This document shows, piece after piece, positions 6,968 to 23,990 of a DNA stretch of 33,393 bases; position 1 is the first letter of the stretch; the number at the start of each line of letters is the position of its first letter. The DNA comes from Rouxiella badensis. GTDB lineage: Bacteria > Pseudomonadota > Gammaproteobacteria > Enterobacterales > Enterobacteriaceae. The position numbers were made by a program, and so were the translations under genes. Under the pieces are notes generated by a model. That model did not search any database. It was not told the DNA's origin and saw only the letters and a program-made list of their open reading frames with translations. The stretch lies in assembly GCF_002093665.1 (NCBI RefSeq), contig NZ_MRWE01000047.1, positions 1-33,393 on the forward strand, written 5' to 3'.

Positions 6968-7084
6968 TTCCTGACTCCTGATTCAATATTATTATTAACA
7001 GCTGATAACCTGAGCTTATTAGGATAGATGATCCTGCTTGCTTAGGATACAGCAAAGAAGCAACTGCCCCGCGCCAGTGCAGTC

Positions 7085-7101
7085 TGCACGAATGCGGTGA
7101 A
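7085..7101 (+). promoter_or_regulatory. Possible NtrC enhancer site
   Basis: TGCACGAATGCGGTGAA matches the NtrC consensus TGCACCANNNTGGTGCA at 11 of 14 defined positions. It lies about 145 bases upstream of the -24 element, within the usual enhancer range. It overlaps a second inverted repeat, GTGCA-GTC-TGCAC, at 7077-7089. The match is suggestive only. Confidence 0.4.
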
Positions 7102-7244
7102 AAATTACCCTCGCCCAACTTGACCCATCCGCTTTTCATCCGCCCTCAACCACCGCCGATATCTTTTAATAAATTAATTATCCCGCTGTTTATAAAGGCA
7201 TTAACCCTGACATTCCCCTGATTTATTTCTGATTAAAAGCGATC

Positions 7245-7260
7245 TGGCAAGGATATTGCC
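7245..7260 (+). promoter_or_regulatory. Sigma-54 (RpoN) type promoter of the guanidine operon
   Basis: TGGCAAGGATATTGCC fits the -24/-12 consensus TGGCAC-N5-TTGCW, with invariant GG at 7246-7247 and GC at 7258-7259 separated by exactly 10 bases. The predicted start of transcription is near 7271, which places the whole riboswitch inside the leader. The orientation is towards the guanidine genes, and nitrogen-regulated RpoN control suits a nitrogen-scavenging operon. Confidence 0.72.
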
Positions 7261-7317
7261 TGTTTGTCAGCAGCAGGAGCGATAGCGGGAAACCGGTGTC
7301 GCCATACAATTTGAAAT

Positions 7318-7415
7318 AAGGTCACTAGGGTTCCGGTCCGCGTTTTGCGGATGGCTGGTCCGAGAGTGACCGACCGCCCTCTGGCGGTTACACGGCGGGA
7401 TAAAAGCCCGGGAGG
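7318..7415 (+). ncRNA. Guanidine-I (ykkC) riboswitch aptamer
   Basis: The conserved ykkC landmarks appear in order: CTAGGGTTCCGG (7325-7336), GGCTGGTCCGAGAG (7353-7366), ACACGGCGGGATAAAAGCCC (7390-7409) and the closing GGGAGG (7410-7415). Stems are also visible: GGTCAC (7320-7325) pairs with GTGACC (7366-7371), TCCGC (7337-7341) with GCGGA (7347-7351), and CCGCC with GGCGG around 7374-7387. This class senses guanidinium and typically switches on guanidine exporters or guanidine carboxylase operons. It sits 70 bases before the ABC-transporter start codon, which fits. Confidence 0.95.
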
Positions 7416-7448
7416 CCAAAGCGAGAACCTTTCTCGCCGCCGACCTCC
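7411..7448 (+). promoter_or_regulatory. Riboswitch expression platform hairpin
   Basis: GGAGG at the end of the aptamer (7411-7415) can pair with CCTCC (7444-7448), enclosing a perfect 7-base hairpin GCGAGAA-CCT-TTCTCGC (7421-7437). The GGAGG is also part of the conserved aptamer end, so ligand binding and this hairpin should exclude each other. No T tract follows, so the off state may involve Rho or a pause rather than a classic intrinsic terminator. Confidence 0.55.
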
Positions 7449-7484
7449 TGCACCTTATCCGTGGTTAACGTCAGAGGAAATATA

Positions 7485-8549
7485 ATGTTTAAAGCTTGCC
7501 AACGCCTGCTGTCCTGCGCCTTATGCCTTGCAGCCCTTCTTAGCCAGCCCGCTCTGGCCGCCACTAAACCTACTTTCAAAATCGCCTGGTCTATTTATGC
7601 CGGCTGGATGCCCTGGGACTTTGCCCAGCAGAGCGGCATCCTCAAGAAATGGGCCGACAAATACGGTATCAACATTCAATTTGTACAGGTAAACGACTAC
7701 ATCGAGTCGGTTAACCAATATACCGCAGGAGGATTTGACGGCTGCACCATGACCAATATGGACGCGCTAACCCTCCCTGCAACCGGCGGCGTAGACAGCA
7801 CTGCGCTTATCGTCGGCGACTACTCCAACGGTAACGATGGCATCATGCTCAAAGGCGCAGGTGATGTGAAATCGCTGAAAGGCCAGTCCATCAATCTGGT
7901 CCAGCTGTCGGTGTCCGAATACCTGCTGGCGCGCGCGCTTGAAAAGTCCGGCATGACCGAGAAAGACGTCACCGTGGTCAACACCGCCGACGCCGACCTG
8001 GTTGCCGCCTTCGGCACTCCGGCCGTGAAGTCGATTGTCACCTGGAACCCGCTGCTGGCAGAGGCTAAAAAGCAGCCCGACAGCCATGAAATCTTCTCCT
8101 CAGCCCAAATCCCGGGCGAAATCCTCGACCTTTTAGTGGTGAACAGCACCACCCTGAAGGCCCATCCTGAGCTCGGCAAGGCGCTGACCGGTGCCTGGTA
8201 CGACACGCTCAATGCCATGAAAGGTAACGGCCCGGAAGCCCTCAAGGCCCGCAGCTTTATGGCGCAGGAGTCGGGTACCGACCTCAAAGGCTTTGACGAT
8301 CAGCTGGCCGCGACCTACCTGTTCAGCACCCCGAAGCAGGCGCTGGACTTTATGAAAGGTCCACAGATTAAAACCACCATGCAGTCCGTGGCTGAGTTCT
8401 CCTTCAAGCACGGCCTGCTCGGCGAAGGCGCGCCGGATGCCACCACCGTCGGGATAACCACACCGTCCGGCAACTGGGGAAATCCGTCCAACCAGAAGCT
8501 GCATTTTACCGACACGTTCGTGAAGCTGGCTGCGGCCAACAAGCTGTAA
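7485..8549 (+). CDS. ABC transporter periplasmic binding protein of the guanidine/urea carboxylase region
   Basis: A 354-residue exported substrate-binding protein. A signal peptide ending in QPALA|ATKP is followed by a NMT1/SsuA/TauA-like two-lobe fold (KIAWSIYAGWMPWDFAQQSG, then IQFVQVNDYIESVNQYTAGG). It resembles the binding proteins found with urea carboxylase genes. It is the first gene after the guanidine-I riboswitch, so the likely ligand is guanidine or a guanidino compound rather than urea. The ATG at 7485 has AGAGGAA at good spacing; the in-frame start 24 bases earlier lacks this. The permease follows after 35 bases. Confidence 0.88.
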   Translation: MFKACQRLLSCALCLAALLSQPALAATKPTFKIAWSIYAGWMPWDFAQQSGILKKWADKYGINIQFVQVNDYIESVNQYTAGGFDGCTMTNMDALTLPATGGVDSTALIVGDYSNGNDGIMLKGAGDVKSLKGQSINLVQLSVSEYLLARALEKSGMTEKDVTVVNTADADLVAAFGTPAVKSIVTWNPLLAEAKKQPDSHEIFSSAQIPGEILDLLVVNSTTLKAHPELGKALTGAWYDTLNAMKGNGPEALKARSFMAQESGTDLKGFDDQLAATYLFSTPKQALDFMKGPQIKTTMQSVAEFSFKHGLLGEGAPDATTVGITTPSGNWGNPSNQKLHFTDTFVKLAAANKL

Positions 8550-8584
8550 TTGCTATCCCTGTTAACTATCTGAAAGGCATTCCG

Positions 8585-9397
8585 ATGCGTAAAATGATCA
8601 ACTACCAACCGCAACGCCTGTCACGCAGCCTGCTCGGGCTTTTACCCCTGCTGCTGCTGATCCTGGTTTATTTGATGGCGTCGGATGCCCGTCTGTCGGC
8701 CAATGCCTTCGATAAGCTGCTGCCGAGCTTTAGCGCCATGGGCGACGCCCTTTACCGCGTAGCGTTTCAAGCCGATCCACGTACCGGCCAATATCTGCTG
8801 TGGACCGACACTTACGCCAGCCTGATTCGCCTGCTGAGCGGCATCGCCATCAGCGCCTTTCTGGGACTGGTGCTGGGTATCTTCTGCGGCGCGCTGCCCG
8901 CCGTGCGTTCGCTGATTTCTCCACTGGTGACGCTGTTTGCGCTGATCCCCCCGCTGGCGGTCCTGCCTATTCTTTTTATCATTTTCGGCCTCGGTGAACT
9001 GTCAAAAATCGTGCTAATCGCCGTCGGTGTGACGCCGTTTATCGCCCGCGACCTTCAACAGCAGGTGCAGTCAATCCCCCACGAACAGCTGATCAAGGCG
9101 CAGACCCTTAGCGGCCACAGTGGGCAAATCATGTGGCGGATAATCCTGCCTCAGCTGATGCCGCGCCTGTTCGACGCGGTACGCCTGTCGCTCGGCTCGG
9201 CCTGGCTGTTCCTGATTGCCGCCGAGGCCATCGCCGCCACCGAAGGGCTCGGTTATCGCATCTTCCTGATGCGCCGCTATCTGGCAATGGACGTTATCTT
9301 GCCCTACGTCGCCTGGATAACGCTGCTCGCCTTTGCCCTCGATGCCTTGCTGCGCCTGATAAGCCGCCGCTGCTGGCCCTGGTATTACGTTAAATAA
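8585..9397 (+). CDS. ABC transporter permease (guanidine uptake)
   Basis: A 270-residue inner-membrane permease of the SsuC/TauC type (binding-protein-dependent transport system family). It has about six hydrophobic segments and the cytoplasmic EAA-like loop that docks the ATPase (EQLIKAQTLSGHSGQIMWRI, continuing ILPQLMPRLFDA). AAAGG lies about 8 bases before the ATG. It stands between the binding protein and the ATPase in one operon under the riboswitch, so it should form the membrane channel of the importer. The substrate is inferred from context only. Confidence 0.88.
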   Translation: MRKMINYQPQRLSRSLLGLLPLLLLILVYLMASDARLSANAFDKLLPSFSAMGDALYRVAFQADPRTGQYLLWTDTYASLIRLLSGIAISAFLGLVLGIFCGALPAVRSLISPLVTLFALIPPLAVLPILFIIFGLGELSKIVLIAVGVTPFIARDLQQQVQSIPHEQLIKAQTLSGHSGQIMWRIILPQLMPRLFDAVRLSLGSAWLFLIAAEAIAATEGLGYRIFLMRRYLAMDVILPYVAWITLLAFALDALLRLISRRCWPWYYVK

Positions 9398-9415
9398 GCC
9401 CCACTGGAGCAAAAA

Positions 9416-10144
9416 ATGAGCTTACTCAGTATGCGCAATCTGGAAAAACACTACGGCAATCAGGTGGTACTCGAGCGGGTCAACGCCGAAGTTCAGGAGG
9501 GAGAGTTCGTCTCTATCGTCGGGGCATCAGGCTGTGGCAAAACCACCTTCCTGAAAATGATGCTCGGTACGGAAAGCCCCAGTAAGGGCGAACTGCTGCT
9601 CGACGGCAAACCGGTCATTCAGGAACCGGGAGAAGATCGCGGCGTAGTTTTCCAACGTTATTCGGTTTTCCCACATCTGACCGCACTGCAAAACGTGATG
9701 ATCGGTGAAGAGTTCGTCCAGGCGCGCTGGCTGGGTCGCGTGTGGGGCAGCAAGCGTAAGGCGATTGCCGAACGCGCCACCGACATGCTGACCCAGGTCG
9801 GGCTCGGCCATGCGCTGGATAAGTACCCTCACCAGCTTTCCGGCGGCATGCAGCAACGTCTGGCACTGGCGCAGGCGCTGACCAAGAAGCCGCGTATCCT
9901 GCTGCTCGACGAACCCTTCGGTGCCCTGGATCCAGGCATCCGCAAAGACATGCATCAGTTGATAACCGAACTATGGCAGAAACACAAACTCACCATTTTC
10001 ATGATAACCCACGACCTCAAGGAGGGTTTTTCCCTCGGTTCGCGCCTGTGGGTGTTCGACAAAATCCGTCATGACCCTCAGGCACCTGACGCCTGGGGCG
10101 CAAGTATTACCTACGACATTCCGCTAGAGGAGCGAAAAGCATGA
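9416..10144 (+). CDS. ABC transporter ATP-binding protein (guanidine uptake)
   Basis: A 242-residue ABC ATPase with Walker A GASGCGKTT (36-44), the Q-loop glutamine at about 80, signature LSGGMQQ (141-147), Walker B ILLLDE (161-166) and the switch histidine in ITHD (H199). It is of the SsuB/TauB subfamily and powers uptake with the preceding binding protein and permease. Its stop overlaps the start of the next gene (ATGA at 10141-10144), so translation of the transporter and the catabolic genes is coupled. Confidence 0.92.
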   Translation: MSLLSMRNLEKHYGNQVVLERVNAEVQEGEFVSIVGASGCGKTTFLKMMLGTESPSKGELLLDGKPVIQEPGEDRGVVFQRYSVFPHLTALQNVMIGEEFVQARWLGRVWGSKRKAIAERATDMLTQVGLGHALDKYPHQLSGGMQQRLALAQALTKKPRILLLDEPFGALDPGIRKDMHQLITELWQKHKLTIFMITHDLKEGFSLGSRLWVFDKIRHDPQAPDAWGASITYDIPLEERKA

Positions 10145-10875
10145 GTGAATCCCACGAAATTCTGTACCAAACCCAGCTTCAAGCCGGTTCACACTGGTCA
10201 ATGCGGGTAAAAAGCGGATCGGCGCTGCGCCTGACCGACGTCGAGGGCGGCGCCAACCTTGGCATGCTGTTTTACAATCCAGAGAACCTGCTCGAACGCT
10301 ACAACGCGCCGGATACCCTGAAGTGCCAGCACACCTTCCGACTCACCGAAGGACACTGCCTCTACTCAGACATGGGGCGCATTTTCTGCGGCATCGAGCA
10401 CGACAGTTTTGGCTGGCACGATACCGTCTGCGGCACCCTGAATGCGGCGCAGACCGAGCAGCGGTTTGGTGCGCTGAGCTATCAGCAGGCGCACAACGCC
10501 CGTCATCAGAACGGCTACGACAGTTTCCTGGTTGAACTGGCAAAATACGGGCTTGGAAAACGCGATATGGCCGCCTGCGTGAACCTGTTTTCAAAAGTCA
10601 CCGTCGACGAAAACGGGTATCTGGCGCTCGACACACGCCCGCAGCCGACGGCCAGCGTCACGCTGCGTTTCGCGATGGACACGCTGGTGGTGATGCACAC
10701 CTGTCCGCATCCCATGACCGAGGCAGCACGCTATCCGCGAGCGCCTATCGATATCGCCCTGCTGGCCGGTAGCGCGCCGCTGCCCGCTCACTGCCTGCAA
10801 TCGGCGGAGAACCAGCGCGGCCAGGCCAACAATGACCTCTACCATCACACTACTTGCTGCCAGGGAGCACACTGA
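10141..10875 (+). CDS. DUF1989 protein, carboxyguanidine deiminase subunit (urea-carboxylase-associated protein 1)
   Basis: A 244-residue protein of the DUF1989 family, long annotated as urea amidolyase/carboxylase-associated protein 1 (UAAP1). In guanidine degradation, two such proteins form carboxyguanidine deiminase (CgdAB), which converts the carboxylated guanidine to allophanate and ammonia. Visible landmarks are [11 protein letters not shown] (37-47), [14 protein letters not shown] at 92-95, [16 protein letters not shown] and a cysteine-rich tail (HTCPHP, then TTCCQGAH). The last two regions supply His/Cys residues that could bind a metal. The start overlaps the ATPase stop by 4 bases and the stop overlaps the next start by 1 base. 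The riboswitch supports the guanidine reading over urea. Confidence 0.85.
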
Positions 10876-11510
10876 TGATCCAGACAAGCCAACAGCATAC
10901 CGAAACCGCCCTTTTTCGTCAGTCCATCGCCGCCGGAGACTATTGGCTGCACCGCATCGAGGCCGGACAAACGCTGCGCATCGTCGATAGCGAAGGCAAT
11001 CAGGCCGCGGATACGCTGTTTTTCAACGCCGACGACGTCGGTGAGCGCTACAGCATGACCGATACTCTGCGCGGACAAAGAAACGTCTTTCTGAGCGCCG
11101 GCACCACGCTACGCTCGAACGACGACCGTCCGATGCTGGAGATAGTCGCCGACACCTGTGGACGCCACGATACCTTGGGCGGCGCCTGTGCCACCGAGAG
11201 CAACACCGTGCGCTATTCGTTGGAAAAGCGCCATATGCACGCCTGCCGCGACAGCTGGATGTTGGCGATTAGCGAGAACCCGCAGTATGGGCTCACCAAA
11301 CGCGACATTACTCACAACATAAATTTCTTCATGAACGTCCCCGTGACTTCGCAGGGCGGATTGACCTTTGAAGACGGGCTCTCCGCGCCGGGGAAATACG
11401 TAGAGTTGGTGGCGAAAATGAACGTCTTAGTGCTTATCTCCAACTGTCCGCAGCTGAATAATCCTTGTAACGGCTACAACCCTACGCCGATTGAAGTGGT
11501 GATCTGGTAA
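10875..11510 (+). CDS. DUF1989 protein, carboxyguanidine deiminase subunit (urea-carboxylase-associated protein 2)
   Basis: A 211-residue paralogue of the preceding DUF1989 protein. It shares [11 protein letters not shown] (41-51), [15 protein letters not shown] at 97-100, [18 protein letters not shown] and [13 protein letters not shown] near the end. The two are expected to form the heteromeric carboxyguanidine deiminase acting on the product of the adjacent carboxylase. The ATG at 10875 overlaps the preceding stop (TGATG) and has AGGGAG about 7 bases upstream. An earlier in-frame start at 10854 would extend it into the neighbouring gene and is less likely. Confidence 0.85.
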
Positions 11511-11605
11511 ATCCAGTCAGATAACGCGTGCTTCGGGACGACCCGCAAAATGCCACGCAACAGCAATACAGCAGGACGACCTGCCCGTCGCACAGAGAGT
11601 CAACC

Positions 11606-14600
11606 ATGTTTAAATGCGTTCTGATTGCCAATCGTGGCGCCATTGCGGTGCGCATCATCCGCACCCTCAAGCAGTTGGGCGTACGCGCCGTGGCGGTCTA
11701 CGCCGAGGCCGACCAGCATTCACTGCACGTTCGCCAGGCCGATGAGGCCTTCTGCCTCGGGGCGGGCAGCGTGCGCGACACTTACCTCAATCAGGATAAA
11801 TTGCTGGCTATCGCGCATCAGTGCGGCGCACAGGCAATTCATCCCGGTTACGGATTTCTCAGCGAAAACGCCGCTTTCGTCGAGCGTTGCACTGCCGAAG
11901 GTGTGGTGTTTCTCGGACCAACCGCCGCGCAGATGGCCGCTTTTGGCCTCAAACACAGCGCCCGTCAGCTGGCGGAGAAATGCCAGGTTCCGCTGCTCCC
12001 GGGCAGTGGATTGCTGATAGATTTACTGCAGGCGCTGCAAAGCGCCGACGAGATTGGTTATCCGGTCATGCTCAAGAGCACCGCAGGGGGCGGCGGTATA
12101 GGCATGCAGCGCTGCGACGACGCCGCCAGCCTCAGTGAGGCATTCACTCGCGTTAAACGCCTCGCAGGCAATAATTTCGCCGATGATGGCGTATTTTTAG
12201 AGAAATTTGTCGCCAAAGCTCGACATATCGAGGTGCAAATCTTTGGTGACGGCGCAGGAAACGTTATTGCGCTCGGTGAAAGGGACTGCTCCGCTCAGCG
12301 CCGAAATCAGAAGGTCATCGAAGAAACGCCTGCCCCGAACCTGCCGCAGCCAGTGCGTGAGGCGCTGCAACAGACCGCGGTGCGTCTGGGTAAAGCGGTC
12401 AACTATCGCAGCGCTGGCACGGTAGAATACGTTTACGACGTCGGCAGTGAGCAGTTTTATTTTCTCGAGGTGAACACCCGTTTACAGGTAGAGCACGGCG
12501 TTACCGAGCAGATTTATGGCGTGGATATTGTCAGCTGGATGGTACAGCTCGGCGCTGACTGCCTGCCGCCGCTCTCAGCGTTCGCCAACCTGACGCCGCA
12601 GGGCCACGCTGTCCAGGTACGCCTCTATGCCGAAGACCCGGCCAAACATTTCCAACCCTGCGCGGGGTTGTTAAGCCACGTCAGTTTTCCGCTCGCACCC
12701 GACGGCGCTCAGCTGCGCATCGACGGCTGGATTGACAGCGGTTGTGAGGTTTCTCCTTTCTATGACCCGATGCTCGCCAAAGTCATCATTCATGCCGAAA
12801 ATCGGCCACTGGCGCTGGCGGCATTGAACCAAACGCTACGCGATACTGAACTCTATGGCATTGAAACCAATCTTGATTATCTGCGTCATCTGCTCGCACA
12901 GCCCGCCGTTATCAAGGGGGAGGTGATCACGGCGACGCTGGCGGGCGTAGACTATCGCCCGGCCACCTTTGACGTACTCACGCCCGGCACATTGACCAGT
13001 ATTCAGGATGCACCAGGCCGCTGCGGTTATTGGCACGTAGGAGTACCGCCTTCGGGTCCGTTCGACAGCCGCTCATTTCGTTTGGGCAACCGCCTGCTCG
13101 GCAACGACGAGCAGGCAGCGGGACTGGAAATCACCTTACGGGGCCCGACGCTGCGCTTTAATCGCGACTGCGCTATTGTCATCAGCGGAGCAGAGATCGA
13201 CGCCCGTCTCGACGGCGAGAAACTGTCGATGTGGCAAGTCTGTACCGTGCACGCCGGGCAAACGCTGGCGCTAGGTCCGGTCGAGGGTGAGGGCTGCCGC
13301 AGCTATTTGCTGCTGGCGGGTGGCATCGACTGCCCACGCTATCTCGGCAGTCGCAGTACTTTCACGCTCGGCAAGTTCGGCGGTCATGCAGGCAGACAAC
13401 TGCGCAGCGGTGACGTGCTGCACCTCGCCGCGCCGCGTTTAACAGAGCGAAAGTCCCTACCGATCAGCTTGCTGCCAGAGTGGCACGAGGTGCGCACCCA
13501 GCGGGTCATTTATGGCCCGCAGGGTGCGCCGAAATTTTTCACCGAGCAAGATATTGCGGCATTTTTCGACGCCGTCTGGCAGGTGCATTACAACTCCAGC
13601 CGCACTGGCATTCGCCTGATCGGCCCTAAACCCGAATGGGCGCGCAGTGACGGCGGCGAAGCGGGTATGCACCCGTCCAATATCCACGACAACGCCTATG
13701 CCTTTGGAACCGTGGATTTTACCGGTGATATGCCGGTAATCCTCGGCCCCGACGGTCCTTCGCTCGGCGGCTTTGTCTGCCCGGCCACGGTGATTCAGGC
13801 AGATCTGTGGCAGCTCGGGCAATTAAAATCCGGCGACAGGATAAGGTTTGTGCCCGTGTCGCTTGAGGATGCCGACCGGTTGGCGCGCGATGCTGAGGTG
13901 GAACTCTCAACGCTGCACTCCCAGCCGAAGGCTGGGATCGCGACAATTTTACAAAATCCACTGTTATGGCACCGCGCAGCGCAGGATGCGCTGCCGTCGG
14001 TGAGCTATCTCGCCGCAGGCGATCGATTTATTTTGGTGGAATATGGCGATCCGATTTTGGATATTGCCCTGAGATTTCGCGCTCATGCCCTGATGCAGTG
14101 GTTGGAAAACAACCGATTGGCGGGCGTGCTGGAACTGACGCCCGGCATTCGATCGCTGCAAATTCATTTTGATAGCCTGCTTTGCCCGCGCGACGCCTTG
14201 ATCAGCCATCTACAGCAGGCAGAAGCCTCACTTGGCGATTTACAGCAGGCCGAGGTGCCTTCACGCACCGTCTGGCTGCCGCTCAGCTGGGACGACGACG
14301 CCTGCCGTGAAGCTATCGAGAAATACACTCAGTCCGTTCGCCCCGGAGCACCCTGGTGCCCGAGCAATATCGAATTTATACGCCGAATCAACGGTCTAAG
14401 CAGTGTTGAAGAGGTGCGGGAAACTCTGTTTAACGCCCGCTATCTGGTCATGGGGCTCGGCGACGTTTATCTGGGTGCGCCGGTCGCTACGCCGTTGGAT
14501 CCGCGCCATCGCTTGGTCACCACCAAATACAACCCGGCACGCACCTGGACGGCAGAAAACTCGGTCGGCATCGGCGGTGCCTACCTGTGCGTCTACGGCA

Positions 14601-15202
14601 TGGAAGGCCCCGGTGGCTATCAGTTCGTGGGCCGTACGCTGCAAATGTGGAACCGTGACCGGCAGACCGAGGCCTTTGTACAACCCTGGCTGCTGCGGTT
14701 TTTCGATCAGATTCGTTTTTATCCGGTGAGCGCCGAGGAGCTGAAGACGATTCGCCAGAACTTCCCGTATGGCGATTATCCGCTGCGCACCGAGGAGGGC
14801 AAATTCCGCCTCGACGAGTATCAGGCCGCTTTGGCGACGCAGCAGTCGGAAATTACCGCGTTTCAGCTTAAGCGACAGCAGGCATTCGACCAAGAGCTGG
14901 CGCGCTGGCGTGCAGACGGACAGTTCACCTTTGACAGCAGTTTGCAGGAAGCGTCGTTGGAGCCTGAACAGGCGATCCCCGAGGGCTGCCACGGCATTGA
15001 CAGCCATGTCGCCGGCAACGTGTGGCAATGGCTCGTGAAACCAGGCGATAAAGTATCATTGGGTCAAACGCTCGGGATCCTGGAGTCGATGAAAATGGAG
15101 ATCCCGATTTCTTCGCCGGTCAGCGGTACGGTGAAGAGTCTGACTCGTCAGCCCGGCTCGCAGGTTCAGGCCGGACAAACGCTGTTGATCGTAGAAGAGT
15201 AG
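11606..15202 (+). CDS. Biotin-dependent guanidine carboxylase (annotated as urea carboxylase)
   Basis: A 1198-residue multidomain enzyme. An N-terminal biotin carboxylase domain covers about 1-450 (MFKCVLIANRGAIAVRIIRT start, ATP-binding KSTAGGGGIGM from K157). A carboxyltransferase region related to KipI/KipA (AHS1/AHS2) covers about 460-1000. The C-terminal biotinyl domain has ESMKME, with the biotin lysine K1163 exactly 35 residues from the end. This is the urea carboxylase layout without a fused allophanate hydrolase. With a guanidine-I riboswitch and the DUF1989 pair in the same operon, the substrate is most likely guanidine. The frame is open upstream to 11528, but 11606 begins the conserved domain. 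It ends the operon, and no allophanate hydrolase follows. Confidence 0.92.
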   Translation: MFKCVLIANRGAIAVRIIRTLKQLGVRAVAVYAEADQHSLHVRQADEAFCLGAGSVRDTYLNQDKLLAIAHQCGAQAIHPGYGFLSENAAFVERCTAEGVVFLGPTAAQMAAFGLKHSARQLAEKCQVPLLPGSGLLIDLLQALQSADEIGYPVMLKSTAGGGGIGMQRCDDAASLSEAFTRVKRLAGNNFADDGVFLEKFVAKARHIEVQIFGDGAGNVIALGERDCSAQRRNQKVIEETPAPNLPQPVREALQQTAVRLGKAVNYRSAGTVEYVYDVGSEQFYFLEVNTRLQVEHGVTEQIYGVDIVSWMVQLGADCLPPLSAFANLTPQGHAVQVRLYAEDPAKHFQPCAGLLSHVSFPLAPDGAQLRIDGWIDSGCEVSPFYDPMLAKVIIHAENRPLALAALNQTLRDTELYGIETNLDYLRHLLAQPAVIKGEVITATLAGVDYRPATFDVLTPGTLTSIQDAPGRCGYWHVGVPPSGPFDSRSFRLGNRLLGNDEQAAGLEITLRGPTLRFNRDCAIVISGAEIDARLDGEKLSMWQVCTVHAGQTLALGPVEGEGCRSYLLLAGGIDCPRYLGSRSTFTLGKFGGHAGRQLRSGDVLHLAAPRLTERKSLPISLLPEWHEVRTQRVIYGPQGAPKFFTEQDIAAFFDAVWQVHYNSSRTGIRLIGPKPEWARSDGGEAGMHPSNIHDNAYAFGTVDFTGDMPVILGPDGPSLGGFVCPATVIQADLWQLGQLKSGDRIRFVPVSLEDADRLARDAEVELSTLHSQPKAGIATILQNPLLWHRAAQDALPSVSYLAAGDRFILVEYGDPILDIALRFRAHALMQWLENNRLAGVLELTPGIRSLQIHFDSLLCPRDALISHLQQAEASLGDLQQAEVPSRTVWLPLSWDDDACREAIEKYTQSVRPGAPWCPSNIEFIRRINGLSSVEEVRETLFNARYLVMGLGDVYLGAPVATPLDPRHRLVTTKYNPARTWTAENSVGIGGAYLCVYGMEGPGGYQFVGRTLQMWNRDRQTEAFVQPWLLRFFDQIRFYPVSAEELKTIRQNFPYGDYPLRTEEGKFRLDEYQAALATQQSEITAFQLKRQQAFDQELARWRADGQFTFDSSLQEASLEPEQAIPEGCHGIDSHVAGNVWQWLVKPGDKVSLGQTLGILESMKMEIPISSPVSGTVKSLTRQPGSQVQAGQTLLIVEE

Positions 15203-15337: not shown

Positions 15338-16237
15338 ATGGCCGAAAAGAATCAATTGGACACGCAATCCATCATTACCTTCCCAAATGATGACTGGAGA
15401 GCCAAAACTGGAGCAATTTCTTCAGCCGTAGAGGAGCTTGAGCAGGGTAAGATTTTATTTTTCCCTCATCTTGGCTATCCATTGAATACACAGCAACAAA
15501 GCCTGCTGGACCCCGCTCTGGTTGATCCAAAAAGAAAAAACATCAGCTATGACGTGGGCAGACACCAGATTAAGGGCGTTGCCAATTCGGAGAAAGAGCC
15601 ACAGGTAAGAAAACTGCTGGAAGACTACTATCAGGCCTGTAGTGCGTTGATAGACACTGTTCTGCCTGAATATCAGAGTGTTTTGCGCAGACCGGTCAAT
15701 AGTTTACGTTTGCACCCGGTCAGTGAATGGCGCAACAAGAGTTCCTGGCGAAAAGATGACAGCCGTCTGCACGTTGACGCTTTTCCTTCGCGCCCGAATT
15801 ACGGCGAACGTATCCTGCGCATTTTCACCAACATCAATCCCCACGGTGAAGACCGGGTTTGGCGCATTGGGGAACCGTTCCCGCAGCTCGCAGAAAGATA
15901 TTTACCGAAGCTGGCCGGTTTCTCTCCGTTCAAAAGCTGGCTACAGCATAAGTTGCATATCACCAAAACGCCGCGCAGCCACTACGACCATCTGATGTTG
16001 CAGATGCACGACAAGATGAAGTCGGACGACAACTACCAGAAAAATGGCCAGCAGATTACCCAGCGCTTCCCGCCGGGCAGCAGCTGGATATGTTTCTCTG
16101 ACCAGACGCCGCACGCTGCGATGTCGGGCCAGTTTATGCTGGAGCAGACCTTCCTGCTGTCGGTGAAAGACATGCACAATCCGGACGCGTCCCCCCTGCG
16201 CACGCTGCAACGGATAACCAACAAACGCCTACTGTAG
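15338..16237 (+). CDS. kdoO: Kdo 3-hydroxylase, Fe(II)/2-oxoglutarate dependent
   Basis: A 299-residue protein resembling the Kdo hydroxylase family (KdoO of Burkholderia and Yersinia), which hydroxylates the outer Kdo of lipopolysaccharide to D-glycero-D-talo-oct-2-ulosonic acid (Ko). The iron-binding HxD is visible at H145/D147 in RLHVDAFPSRPN and the distal histidine at H259 in SDQTPHAAMSG. The length fits the family. AGAGAAAG precedes the ATG. It follows the guanidine operon with its own upstream region, so it is probably a separate unit. Its 3' end overlaps the convergent isonitrile-hydratase-like gene by 9 bases. Confidence 0.78.
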   Translation: MAEKNQLDTQSIITFPNDDWRAKTGAISSAVEELEQGKILFFPHLGYPLNTQQQSLLDPALVDPKRKNISYDVGRHQIKGVANSEKEPQVRKLLEDYYQACSALIDTVLPEYQSVLRRPVNSLRLHPVSEWRNKSSWRKDDSRLHVDAFPSRPNYGERILRIFTNINPHGEDRVWRIGEPFPQLAERYLPKLAGFSPFKSWLQHKLHITKTPRSHYDHLMLQMHDKMKSDDNYQKNGQQITQRFPPGSSWICFSDQTPHAAMSGQFMLEQTFLLSVKDMHNPDASPLRTLQRITNKRLL

Positions 16238-19364: not shown

Positions 19365-21434
19365 TTATTGCAGGACAGAGATATCCGCCACCTGCAGGAA
19401 CAGCTCGCGCAGTTTGCTCAACAGCGTCAGACGATTGATACGCACCGCTTCGTCTTCAGCCATCACCATCACGCCGTCAAAGAAGGCGTCGACCGGCTCG
19501 CGCAGAGCAGCCAGTTCAACCAGCGCTTGCTGATACTGACCCGCAACAAACAGTGGCTCGAGCTTGTCGCGCAGGACCACCAGGTGGGTTGCCAGCTTCA
19601 CCTCAGACGGCTCTTTCAATACCGACGCGTGAACCTGGTCGTAAAGGGCCTCGTTCGATTTTGCCAGAATGTTAGACACGCGCTTGTTGGCCGCAGCCAG
19701 CGTTGCCGCTTCGTCCAGGGTGCGGAAGTAGGTCACGGCCTTAACGCGAGCGTCAAAGTCGGCCGGTTTGGTCGGACGACGAGCCAGCACGGCCTGAATG
19801 GTGTCAACCGCGTGGCCTTCTTCCTGATACCAGGCACGGAAACGACCCAGCATGAAATCGACAACGTCATCGACGACTTTCTCGTTGGTCAGCTTGTCGC
19901 CATACAGACGTACCGCTTCTTCGGTCAGCGTTTGCAGATCCAGAGGCAGGTTCTTTTCAACGATGATACGCAGCACGCCTAGCGCGGCACGACGCAGCGC
20001 AAACGGGTCTTTGTCGCCCTTCGGATGTTGCCCGATGCCGAAGATACCGGCCAGGGTGTCCATCTTGTCAGCGATCGCCAGCGCACAGGCCACCAGCGAT
20101 TCAGGCAGCTGATCACCGGCAAAACGCGGCTGATACTGTTCGTTCAACGCAACGGCAACTTCTTCCGCTTCGCCGTCGTGACGGGCATAGTGCATGCCCA
20201 TCACGCCCTGCGTGTCGGTGAACTCGAATACCATGTTGGTCATCAGGTCGCATTTAGACAGCAAACCTGCGCGCCTGGCGTTCTCGACATTGGCACCGAT
20301 TTTATCGGCTATCCACCCAGACAGCGCCTGAATACGGTCGGTCTTGTCACGCAGCGTGCCCAGCTGTTTCTGGAACAGCACGGTCTCAAGGCGCGGCAGA
20401 TTGTCTTCAAGACGCTTTTTACGGTCTGTGTTGAAGAAGAACTCGGCATCGGCCAGACGCGGACGAACCACTTTCTCGTTACCGGAGATTATCTGCTGCG
20501 GGTCTTTCGACTCGACGTTGGCAACGAAGATGAAGTTCGGCAGCAGTTTTCCGGCGGCGTCGTACACCGGGAAATACTTCTGGTCACCCTTCATGGTGTA
20601 AACCAGCGCTTCCGCAGGGACGGCCAGGAATTTTTCTTCGAATTTCGCGGTCAGCACGACCGGCCATTCAACCAGTGAGGTCACTTCTTCCAGCAGGCTG
20701 TCGCTCAGGTCGGCGATACCGCCAATCTCGGCGGCAGCCGCTTCAGCGCCCTGCTTGATGACGGCTTTACGCTGCTCGTAGTCGGCAATCACCTTGCCGC
20801 GCTCGAGCAGAATTTGCGGATACTGGTCGGCGTTGTCGATAGTGAATTCGGACTCGCCCATAAAGCGGTGACCACGAACGGTGCGCGCAGAGTCGATGCC
20901 CAGAATAGTACCGGCAATAAGCTCGTCACCCAGCAGCAGGGTCACGGTGTGAACCGGACGCACGAACTGCACGTCGGAGTCGCCCCAACGCATCAGTTTT
21001 GGAATAGGCAGTTTTTGCAGGGAAGTCGCTATCATCGCTGGCAGCAGCGCCTGAGCGCTCTCGCCCTTAACGTGTGCACGATAAACCAGCCACTCGCCTT
21101 TGTCGCCCACCAGACGATCGGCCTGTTCGACGGTGATTCCACAGCCGCGCGCCCAGCCTTCGGCCGCTTTGGTGGCGTTACCTTCGGCGTCAAACGCCTG
21201 AGCAATCGCAGGACCGCGTTTCTCGACTTCGCGATCGGCCTGCGCCGCGCTGAGGTTGGCAACTTTTACCGCCAGACGACGCGGTGCAGCAAACCACTCA
21301 ACCGCGCCGTGTGCCAGATTGGCCGCGTCCAGCTCAGCGGTCAGATTGGCCGCGAAAGATTCGGCAAGGCTACGCAGCGCCTTTGGTGGCAGCTCTTCCG
21401 TGCCGATTTCCACCAGAAATGTTTTTTCAGTCAT
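19365..21434 (-). CDS. glyS: Glycyl-tRNA synthetase beta subunit
   Basis: The 689-residue beta subunit of the bacterial alpha2beta2 glycyl-tRNA synthetase recognises tRNA-Gly. The N-terminus [19 protein letters not shown] and length match E. coli GlyS (689) almost exactly. Conserved stretches are visible through the HD-like middle ([17 protein letters not shown]) to the C-terminal anticodon-binding region. The ATG at 21434 gives the E. coli start; a GTG one codon upstream is also in frame. It lies 9 bases after the glyQ stop, so the two subunits are co-translated. Confidence 0.97.
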
Positions 21435-21443
21435 CACTGTTTC

Positions 21444-22358
21444 TCACTTCTCGTTCTTTTTGCACATCGGGAAGCCCAGCGCCTCGCGGGAAGCGTAGTA
21501 GGCTTCGGCCACCATCTTGGTCAGGGTACGGATGCGCAGAATATAGCGCTGACGCTCGGTCACGGAGATGGCCTTGCGCGCGTCCAGCAGGTTGAAGCAG
21601 TGCGCCGCTTTCAAAATACGCTCGTAGGCAGGCAGAGCCAGCGGATTCTCGAGAGCCAGCAGCTTTTGCGCTTCTTTCTCGTGCTGTTCAAAGCTGTGGA
21701 ACAGGAAGTCTACGTCGGCGTATTCGAAGTTATAGGTGGATTGCTCCACTTCGTTCTGATGGAACACGTCGCCGTAAGTGGTTTTACCCAGCGGGCCATC
21801 GCTCCACGTCAGGTCGTAAACGCTGTCTACGCCCTGAATGTACATCGCCAAACGCTCGAGACCGTAGGTGATTTCACCGGTAACCGGCTTGCACTCAAGG
21901 CCGCCGACCTGCTGGAAATAGGTAAACTGCGTCACTTCCATCCCGTTCAGCCACACTTCCCAGCCGAGACCCCAGGCGCCAAGCGTCGGGTTTTCCCAGT
22001 TGTCTTCTACGAAGCGGATATCGTGAACGGTAGGATCCAGACCCAGCTCTTTCAGCGAGCCGAGGTAGAGCTCCTGAATGTTTTCAGGCGAAGGTTTGAT
22101 CATCACCTGGAACTGATAATAGTGCTGCAGGCGGTTAGGGTTTTCGCCATAACGGCCGTCGGTAGGACGACGGGAAGGCTGAACGTAGGCGGCAGCAAAC
22201 GGCTCCGGGCCTAGCGCGCGCAGGCTAGTCATCGGGTGGGAAGTTCCCGCGCCGACTTCCATATCCAATGGCTGAACGATAGTACAGCCCTGTTGTGCCC
22301 AGTAATCCTGAAGCGTCAGGATCAGGCCCTGAAAGGTCTTGGTATCAAACTTTTGCAT
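21444..22358 (-). CDS. glyQ: Glycyl-tRNA synthetase alpha subunit
   Basis: The 304-residue catalytic alpha subunit of glycyl-tRNA synthetase activates glycine. It is nearly identical to E. coli GlyQ from [20 protein letters not shown] to the C-terminal [11 protein letters not shown], and class II motifs such as [16 protein letters not shown] are intact. The start at 22358 matches E. coli; the frame runs 20 codons further upstream but that extension is not conserved. It is the first gene of the glyQS operon, with a candidate promoter at 22403. Confidence 0.97.
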
Positions 22359-22402
22359 GTTGGTTTCGCACGCGAGACAAGTGAGTTTATAAAGAGTCGG
22401 AC

Positions 22403-22408
22403 AGTATA
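22403..22408 (-). promoter_or_regulatory. Candidate -10 of the glyQS promoter
   Basis: On the minus strand TATACT lies about 45 bases before the glyQ start, with a weak -35 (CTGATT) 17 bases upstream. A sigma-70 promoter is expected here. Confidence 0.4.
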
Positions 22409-22475
22409 CCCGCTGCACGGAAGATAATCAGCTACCGCTTCCGACTTTCTCTGCCTCACAAAAAGGCATAAAACA

Positions 22476-22487: not shown

Positions 22488-22609
22488 CGCCGTTTGCCAC
22501 ATTAAGGCGCAAGGCAACCAGGCATAGCCCGGCGTCGGGACGACGAGTGCCCGTAATCCGGTCGCGCAGGCGTTTATTTGCCCCGCCGTGCCTGACTGGC
22601 ATCAACATT

Positions 22610-22647
22610 GCTAGCCTCCTTATAACGCGAACGCTAAGGAGGCAAGC
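22610..22647 (+). promoter_or_regulatory. Shine-Dalgarno-sequestering hairpin before the MFS gene
   Basis: GCTAGCCTCCTTA (22610-22622) and TAAGGAGGCAAGC (22635-22647) are complementary at 12 of 13 positions around a 12-base loop. The right arm contains the full ribosome-binding site AAGGAGG, 7 bases before the ATG at 22650. In RNA this would bury the site in a stable stem. Confidence 0.7.
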
Positions 22648-22649
22648 CT

Positions 22650-23990
22650 ATGTCAACCGAACACAATCAGAGCCATTACCGCTATCGCATTTTCGCGATG
22701 GTCTTTTTTATCGCCTTGATCAACTACATCGATCGCGGCGCGCTCTCCTTTGCGGCCAATGATATTTCGGCCGAATACCACTTCACTAAACTCCAGCTCG
22801 GCGCAGTGCTCGGATATTTCGGCTTTGGTTACCTGTTTGGTTCTCTCTGCGGGGGATTGCTGGCCGACAGAATCGGGACCAAAAAAGTTTGGCTTATCGC
22901 CGGCGGCCTGTGGTCGTTGCTGGAAATTGGCACCGCGTGGGCCGGTGAGCTTGGGGTCGCACTGTTCGGCGGCTCGGCAATCATGGGCTTTGCGGTATTG
23001 CGTATTCTGTTTGGCTTCTCGGAAGGGCCGGCCTACGCGTTGATGAACAAGACTATTGCCCATTGGGCACCACGCAGAGAGCGCGGCTTCTCACTGGGCA
23101 TTGGGCTGCTAAGCACCCAGGTTGGTGCGCTGCTGACCGCGCCCCTGGCGGTAGGTTTACTGCTGCTTACCCACGACTGGCGCACGATGTTTATTGTACT
23201 GGGCGTCTTTTCGCTGCTGGCAATCGCCGTGTTTGCCCGTGGGTTTACCGATACCCCCGCGCAGCATCCTAAGGTGACGCCAGCAGAACTGGCCGCTATC
23301 GCGCAAGACGCAGAGGTACAGGATACCGGCTCTCGCCAGCCGTGGTGGGCGTTTTTTACCAGCCGTACGCTGGTGCTGAATGCACTGGGCTATTTCTCGT
23401 TCCTGTACGTCACCTTTGTGCTGGTCACCTGGAGCCCTAAATATTTGCAGGATACCTTCCACTATGACCTGCATTCCCTGTGGTACGTCGCGATGATCCC
23501 CTGGACCGGCGCCTGCTTCACCGTGCTGCTCGGCGGCAAGATAGCCGATACGCTGCTGCGTAAAACCGGCAACCTGCGTCTGGCGCGCAACGTTTTTGCC
23601 GCCGTCACGCTGCTGCTGACCGCCACCTGTTTCGTACTTATTCCCTACGCCAGCTCACCGTTCGAGATAATTCTGCTGATGACTCTGGGCAACGCCTTGA
23701 ATGCTCTGGTAAATAACCTGTACTGGTCGGTGGTGATTGACGTCTCGCCGAAGGCGTCGGTTGGCACCTACAGCGGCATGACGCTGGCGATAGCCAACGT
23801 GGCGTCGATACTCGCGCCGACGTTAAGCGGCTATCTGGCGCAGTACCACGGCTATGGTGCGATGTTCACCGCGACGGCGGCCGTGTCTTTTTGCAGCATG
23901 CTGTGCATGACCCTGCTACAGCCTGAGAAACGGATGAAAAAACGGGAACCTATGCCGCAGGGTAAACAGGTAGCGCTTGCAGAAAAATAG
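22650..23990 (+). CDS. MFS transporter, anion:cation symporter (ACS) type
   Basis: The 446-residue protein has about 12 membrane segments. Its first segment is RYRIFAMVFFIALINYIDRG, and YLFGSLCGGLLADRIGTKKV carries the family GxxxDRxGxK-like loop motif, as in ACS-type sugar-acid and organic anion transporters. It ends with a basic cytoplasmic tail. The substrate is not recognisable. No catabolic gene is adjacent: glyQ is divergent and tag follows after 52 bases. An unusually strong Shine-Dalgarno is locked in a hairpin just upstream, suggesting translational control. Confidence 0.85.
   Translation: MSTEHNQSHYRYRIFAMVFFIALINYIDRGALSFAANDISAEYHFTKLQLGAVLGYFGFGYLFGSLCGGLLADRIGTKKVWLIAGGLWSLLEIGTAWAGELGVALFGGSAIMGFAVLRILFGFSEGPAYALMNKTIAHWAPRRERGFSLGIGLLSTQVGALLTAPLAVGLLLLTHDWRTMFIVLGVFSLLAIAVFARGFTDTPAQHPKVTPAELAAIAQDAEVQDTGSRQPWWAFFTSRTLVLNALGYFSFLYVTFVLVTWSPKYLQDTFHYDLHSLWYVAMIPWTGACFTVLLGGKIADTLLRKTGNLRLARNVFAAVTLLLTATCFVLIPYASSPFEIILLMTLGNALNALVNNLYWSVVIDVSPKASVGTYSGMTLAIANVASILAPTLSGYLAQYHGYGAMFTATAAVSFCSMLCMTLLQPEKRMKKREPMPQGKQVALAEK

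Follow-up and report, generated by a model that had tools for sequence, protein, structure and literature searches.

A probable guanidine operon of Rouxiella badensis with two riboswitch-like elements, putative signals of nitrogen control and its allophanate hydrolase gene on another contig

Introduction

What does an operon that would ordinarily be labelled urea carboxylase break down, and where is the breakdown completed? Both questions are raised by a stretch of 33,393 nt, here called the window, which is one whole contig of the 4.78-Mb genome of Rouxiella badensis and which carries a guanidine-I riboswitch followed by the genes of an ATP-binding cassette (ABC) importer, two DUF1989 proteins and a 1198-residue biotin-dependent carboxylase, all of them consecutive and on the + strand. 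The label is the usual one because the family model that the carboxylase matches, TIGR02712, carries the name urea carboxylase; an initial annotation of the sequence had read the operon as one for the uptake of guanidine and its use as a nitrogen source.

The pathway from guanidine, both kinds of riboswitch and the Asp/Asn rule by which guanidine carboxylases are told from urea carboxylases are already published. A search of the literature, in which few subscription papers were covered, turned up no account of allophanate hydrolase (AtzF) being split off in this way, nor of a guanidine-riboswitch operon controlled through sigma54. We propose, with a probability of roughly four in five, that the window holds a guanidine operon that would be turned on by nitrogen limitation, with its riboswitches as a second gate and with AtzF borrowed in trans from another operon.

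The carboxylase and the genes before it

The gene order of the initial annotation, from riboswitch to importer, DUF1989 pair and carboxylase, is borne out by matches to family models. The importer's periplasmic substrate-binding protein is encoded at 7485-8549 (+; TIGR03427, 509.4 bits, cut-off 333.9), from an ATG at 7485 within a longest open reading frame that begins with GTG at 7461; the permease (8585-9397, +; PF00528) and the ATPase (9416-10144, +; PF00005) follow, and after them come CgdA (10141-10875, +) and CgdB (10872-11510, +), the presumed subunits A and B of a carboxyguanidine deiminase. The carboxylase gene gca occupies 11606-15202 (+); its 1198 amino acids are counted from the ATG at 11606, the longest open reading frame starting with GTG at 11528, and its match to TIGR02712, at 1808.1 bits, is over the curated cut-off.

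Taken at their NCBIfam names, these genes would form a urea operon, in which the importer takes up urea and a urea carboxylase acts upon it: the TIGR02712 match is as strong as stated, and TIGR03427, also exceeded, stands for a 'putative urea ABC transporter substrate-binding protein'. The active site argues otherwise. When the window carboxylase is aligned by phmmer over its length with the urea amidolyase of K. lactis (3va7, 5i8i), Asn1330 of the latter is replaced by Asp704, and Asp1584 corresponds to Asp953 in the sequence GLGDVYLG (704 and 953 are numbers derived by hand from the offset of the alignment). A comammox study of 2024 relied on this pair of positions to recognise guanidine carboxylases (PMC11410670), and according to a review the guanidine enzymes have Asp and the urea enzymes Asn (PMC12186494). 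The same Rouxiella genome contains a second carboxylase, 53% identical to that of the window, which has Asn at the 704 position and adjoins AtzF; among the loci compared, each with CgdAB is of the Asp type, and each carboxylase directly after AtzF is of the Asn type. A urea-type active site, which had been named as the finding that would refute guanidine as the substrate, was thus sought in the window carboxylase and an Asp was found in place of the Asn. Together with the matches to guanidine-I and guanidine-II riboswitches described below, Asp704 and the separate Asn-type paralogue beside AtzF make a urea operon scarcely credible and point to a carboxylase of the guanidine type. A further carboxylase of the urea/guanidine family, at G033:C1:3393122-3396311, gives a match broken into several pieces; the completeness estimate of its genome is low (49).

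CgdA and CgdB, the adjacent UAAP1 and UAAP2 proteins of the family DUF1989 (which we take to be COG3665), both exceed the curated NCBIfam cut-offs (TIGR03425, 289.2 bits, cut-off 205.95; TIGR03424, 330.9 bits, cut-off 284.7), in agreement with the earlier proposal that the pair would be a carboxyguanidine deiminase. Cys106, Cys125 and Cys192 of CgdB align with cysteines of trimethylamine N-oxide (TMAO) demethylase that presumably bind zinc. In alignments of 64 rows, some of which are one genome counted twice, CgdB has Cys at all three places in 64/64; in CgdA the middle place is Gly in 64/64, and the outer two carry Cys in 49 and 53 of 64. CgdB is therefore named here as the probable catalytic, metal-bearing subunit. 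Among proteins of known structure, the binding protein of the importer gives weak matches only, to taurine and nitrate binding proteins, so that guanidine is its presumed ligand.

Allophanate hydrolase lies outside the operon

A family-profile search finds no AtzF in the window operon, where the gene after gca encodes the Kdo hydroxylase KdoO (15338-16237, +; NCBIfam, 436.5 bits, cut-off 300) and is outside the guanidine pathway; the pathway is not completed by the operon itself, a point that the initial annotation had missed. The sole AtzF over the cut-off in the genome is found at G000:C29:31038-32723 (815.7 bits, cut-off 511; the other three matches reach at most 202), on a contig other than that of the window, with 12 bases between its stop codon and the Asn-type carboxylase gene that follows.

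The same division of the genes is widespread. In 42 genomes with an Asp-type locus (L037-L078), a set that came from a similarity search and in which several members are metagenome bins, there is one AtzF each in 42/42 (E <= 1e-90). It lies beside the Asp-type carboxylase in seven of them (L063, L065, L066, L067, L069, L070 and L076), all seven having a single carboxylase, and elsewhere in the remaining 35, of which 32 have it adjoining an Asn-type carboxylase (one split in two pieces) and three, namely two Dickeya and one Prodigiosinella, show no second carboxylase. Because that set came from a similarity search, a census was made of 295 genomes drawn from the family, with some overlap between the two. 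An Asp-type carboxylase is present in 44/295 (43 by a bit score of at least 1529, plus G319, in which the gene is split), and 45 further genomes have the Asn type only, again by bit score. AtzF accompanies the Asp type in 44/44, being linked to it in nine, beside an Asn type in 30 and alone in five, which belong to three genera; 'linked' and 'beside' here denote a distance within 600 bases of the Asp-type or Asn-type gene, respectively. None of the nine genomes with an operon-linked AtzF has the Asn type. Where a full Asn-type gene is lacking, AtzF is found in 14/14 genomes with the Asp type and in 2/206 without it (Fisher p 2.6e-20, uncorrected for kinship); as to the two exceptions, AtzF of G232 precedes an Asn-type gene or at least part of one, and that of G305 is under the cut-off.

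The position of AtzF outside the operon, in the window and in the 35 genomes of the first set, could be taken as the sign of a detoxification operon, in which guanidine is turned into allophanate that is excreted or left to decay and does not serve as a nitrogen source. Such a reading has to contend with the presence of AtzF somewhere in every Asp-type genome searched, in both sets and including the five where it stands alone, with the ABC importer and its periplasmic binding protein at the head of the operon, and with the sigma54-like boxes and NtrC-like sites that tie the operon to nitrogen limitation; we hold it to be improbable.

One could also keep the carboxyguanidine route and have its product, allophanate, which decays spontaneously, decarboxylate to urea, to be used in turn by the Asn-type carboxylase or by urease. 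An Asn-type carboxylase is indeed available in 30/44 of the Asp-type genomes of the family. No urease alpha subunit, however, is found in the Rouxiella genome at E <= 1e-20, for which reason we rejected urease for the last step and AtzF is the only allophanate exit seen in the genome; a urea carboxylase would only remake allophanate, for which AtzF would still be needed, and the two Dickeya and the one Prodigiosinella keep AtzF and show no second carboxylase. This detour through urea is very improbable, and we prefer direct use of allophanate by an AtzF supplied in trans. A guanidine riboswitch on the atzF operon was considered too and rejected, since a scan of nine atzF loci (L017, L023, L118, L119, L120, L121, L127, L130 and L135) found none that reached the gathering score.

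The descent of AtzF was examined in an unrooted tree of 53 fragments, whose deep order is uncertain on account of long branches, chiefly that of L067. All 29 urea-linked copies in the tree (a subset of the 43 in the promoter-box count below), 6/6 of the orphans and 2/18 operon-linked copies, the sisters L070 and L158, fall into one group with support 100/100; the other 16/18 operon-linked copies fall outside it (L066 was left out of the operon-linked AtzF in both the tree and the box count). From their position in the urea-linked group, the orphans look like urea-type AtzF left after loss of the urea carboxylase, and L070 and L158 look as if a guanidine operon had captured a urea-type AtzF. 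Both histories are what shared use predicts. Beside atzF of the Rouxiella genome there are two small genes (L001, 31-1195; HD-type and MarR-like, as judged by eye) that resemble those at L046, 14188-15308, by a Pantoea guanidine operon, which may point to a common insertion site or to rearrangement between the two operons.

Putative signals of nitrogen control

A sigma54 (-24/-12) promoter-like box of the form GG-N10-GC, CTGGCAAGGATATTGCC, lies at 7244-7260 (+; score 14/15) and ends 53 nt before the guanidine-I aptamer; it is absent from the initial annotation. Upstream of it are two NtrC-like sites, the first at 7065-7081 (+), 179 bp from the box, with 2/12 mismatches to TGCACC-N5-GGTGCA, and the second at 7085-7101 (+), 20 bp from the first and likewise with 2 mismatches; scoring was against what we take to be the sigma54 and NtrC consensus sequences. 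No sigma70 promoter was found before the riboswitch in 7000-7600, a result that is little informative since shuffles average 0.5.

A box scoring at least 13/15 is present 28-53 nt before the aptamer in 42/52 loci, a count from which L060, L061 and L068 (duplicates of the genomes L022, L021 and L018) were excluded, together with the distant loci L027-L029, L063, L065-L067, L069, L070 and L076. Eight of the distant loci, all except L066 and L070, were examined separately, and the box is found there at 59 nt (L028), 53 nt (L029) and 106 nt (L063 and L069); L079-L085, which are Bacillus-type and fragment matches, were not used. The frequency of scores of at least 13 over all collected loci, the real sites included, is about one in 7,300 strand bases. 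NtrC-like sites with at most 2/12 mismatches stand 30-230 bp upstream of the box in 25/31 loci, the set being that which was left when near-duplicates and boxless loci had been dropped, and 200 rounds of dinucleotide shuffling gave a mean of 0.36 loci and a maximum of 3. Before atzF, the sigma54-like box is found in 43/43 urea-linked loci, in 1/6 orphans and, as a weak one, in 1/18 operon-linked copies.

Published work on nitrogen control touches genes that may be of this kind under other names. In an ntrC mutant of B. cenocepacia H111 the genes I35_7283-7286, annotated as urea carboxylase, binding protein and aminomethyltransferase, are reported to be down (PMC5491218), and a sigma54 survey states that, of 102 COG3665 genes under sigma54 control, 59% bear the name urea carboxylase (PMC12316311). 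Neither main text turned out to contain the word 'guanidine'. On these signals the window operon appears to be under sigma54/NtrC control. A second sigma54-like box in the window, with a score of 14, is located at 22596-22612 (+), upstream of an open reading frame at 22650.

A guanidine-I riboswitch and a putative guanidine-II riboswitch

The guanidine-I aptamer extends over 7314-7416 (+; RF00442, 99.9 bits, gathering score 63, E 2.4e-17, full model 1-107) and is the only such match of the genome among the 150 of 169 first-look candidates that were scored. Its presence had been recognised correctly in the initial annotation, and its start, placed there at 7318, is corrected here by 4 bases. 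The leader from the aptamer to the first gene (7417-7484, +) contains a terminator-like stem, GGGAGG/CCTCC, which lacks a T run, and a Shine-Dalgarno region, CGTCAGAGG, which is complementary to CCTCTGGCG of the aptamer stem P2. A terminator scan of the window found no intrinsic terminator after the aptamer; a Pantoea locus (L046), unlike the window, has TTTTTTTT. The folded leader pairs the Shine-Dalgarno region with P2 (z -2.21), and a pairing of the CTCTG/CAGAGG type is seen in 22/32 loci (a tally made by eye, 2 of the 32 not being parsed), which suggests possible translational control by way of this pairing. The P2 and leader sequence of L173 (G221) differ from those of the other enterics, yet a 14-base complementarity is kept, which looks like compensatory change.

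The initial annotation had missed a second element, a putative riboswitch of the guanidine-II type ahead of gca. It lies between cgdB and gca at 11530-11584 (+; RF01068, 30.6 bits, sub-threshold), consists of two hairpins with ACGA loops and is the only guanidine-II match of the genome among the 150 of 302 first-look candidates that were scored; the loci of five Rouxiella genus-mates hold none at gathering score either. Of the cgdB-gca leaders, 48/51 have a pair of hairpins with ACGA or ACGG loops, those of the window's genus included, and the leaders of L065, L066 and L067 lack it; the 51 were read from a set of 52 loci, in which L070 is without cgdB in its contig and three genomes are present twice. 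Among 5000 dinucleotide shuffles of the window leader, 0 give two hairpins with ACGR loops; folded alone, the leader has a z of -0.68, a value that carries little information.

A proposed model of nitrogen-limited guanidine use

Under nitrogen limitation, NtrC and sigma54 would start transcription slightly downstream of the box at 7244-7260, and would turn on both operons, for guanidine and for urea, when nitrogen is short. Judging from the known riboswitch families, binding of guanidinium to the guanidine-I aptamer would allow the importer and CgdAB to be made, and its binding to the guanidine-II aptamer would open the translation of gca. The importer would then bring in guanidine, the carboxylase would convert it into carboxyguanidine at the expense of ATP, and CgdAB, of which CgdB would be the metal-bearing subunit, would convert carboxyguanidine into allophanate with the release of one ammonia. 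Allophanate would flow to the genome's only AtzF, which comes from the operon of the Asn-type carboxylase with a sigma54-like box of its own, so that guanidine and urea catabolism would share their final enzyme and both fall within the nitrogen regulon.

Beyond the window, we lean towards a generalisation of this model to most of the examined Enterobacterales that have the operon (35/44 in the census): the module would be split, with AtzF acting in trans from a urea amidolyase operon or what was formerly one, sigma54 and NtrC would tie both operons together, the response would be nutritional, gated by nitrogen limitation and guanidine at once, and not one of detoxification, and AtzF would be kept despite loss of the urea carboxylase.

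Several observations weigh against the model. The guanidine-II score of 30.6 is below the gathering score of 32. The sigma54-like box is missing from its place in 10/52 loci (eight Pantoea, one Erwinia and one Enterobacter cancerogenus), other Pantoea and Erwinia loci having it; among the eight distant loci, L027 and L076 are without a box, L065 and L067 are without a recognisable aptamer core, and the boxes of L063 and L069, at 106 nt, lie off the usual place. An NtrC-like site with at most 2 mismatches is absent in 2/5 Rouxiella loci, and 5/6 orphan atzF genes have no sigma54-like box. The Asp or Asn class in the census was assigned from bit score, except for loci whose sequence was retrieved, and the genomes are related and partly identical between the sets, so that the counts are not counts of independent events. 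Lastly, the window box is a short palindrome, and the terminator scan lists a weak stem at 7246-7260. That stem is the box itself, and we prefer a promoter to a terminator because other genera keep the box, and do not keep it as a palindrome.

On the proposed model, a locus to which NCBIfam would give the name urea carboxylase becomes a guanidine pathway that can be tested and whose weak point is predicted, namely that a single deletion of atzF, in the other operon, should block both the use of urea and the full use of guanidine. It suggests that nitrogen control extends to many enteric guanidine-riboswitch operons, a point relevant to the question whether free guanidine feeds or poisons these bacteria, and the pairs of Asp-type and Asn-type carboxylases within single genomes offer natural controls.

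Relation to known systems

In the review cited above, gca and allophanate hydrolase both follow a guanidine-II riboswitch (PMC12186494). The operon described there is like that of the window in having guanidine-I before the importer and the cgd genes, guanidine-II before gca and the same enzymes, and differs in the place of atzF, which for the window is outside the operon, on another contig and beside an Asn-type carboxylase. The gca/mgdH operon of Vreelandella boliviensis shares with the window the guanidine-I riboswitch upstream, the guanidine-II riboswitch between cgdB and gca, the ABC importer, cgdA, cgdB and gca; it also has mgdH, mgdL and atzF, none of which was found beside gca in the window (PMC12508155). 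The arrangement with two riboswitches is reported, in these two sources, for Vreelandella and three enterics (PMC12186494, PMC12508155).

The urea amidolyase operon, in which atzF is followed by the Asn-type carboxylase, resembles the window operon through its homologous carboxylase, at the 53% identity already given, and its sigma54-like box; it is unlike it in having Asn for Asp704 and in that none of the nine scanned atzF loci holds a guanidine riboswitch that reaches the gathering score. As for I35_7283-7286 of B. cenocepacia, compared by annotation alone, the binding protein, the aminomethyltransferase (by name) and the carboxylase have counterparts in the window, and the authors, unlike us, read these as urea genes (PMC5491218).

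Neighbouring genes

On the - strand of the window, at 19365-22418, two open reading frames of 690 and 324 aa resemble glyS and glyQ by place and size. Open reading frames of 689 aa that look like glyS, named by eye, are found on the downstream side of the guanidine operon in L037, L039, L040, L043 and L061 as well, and the operon's neighbourhood seems to be kept across several enteric genera.

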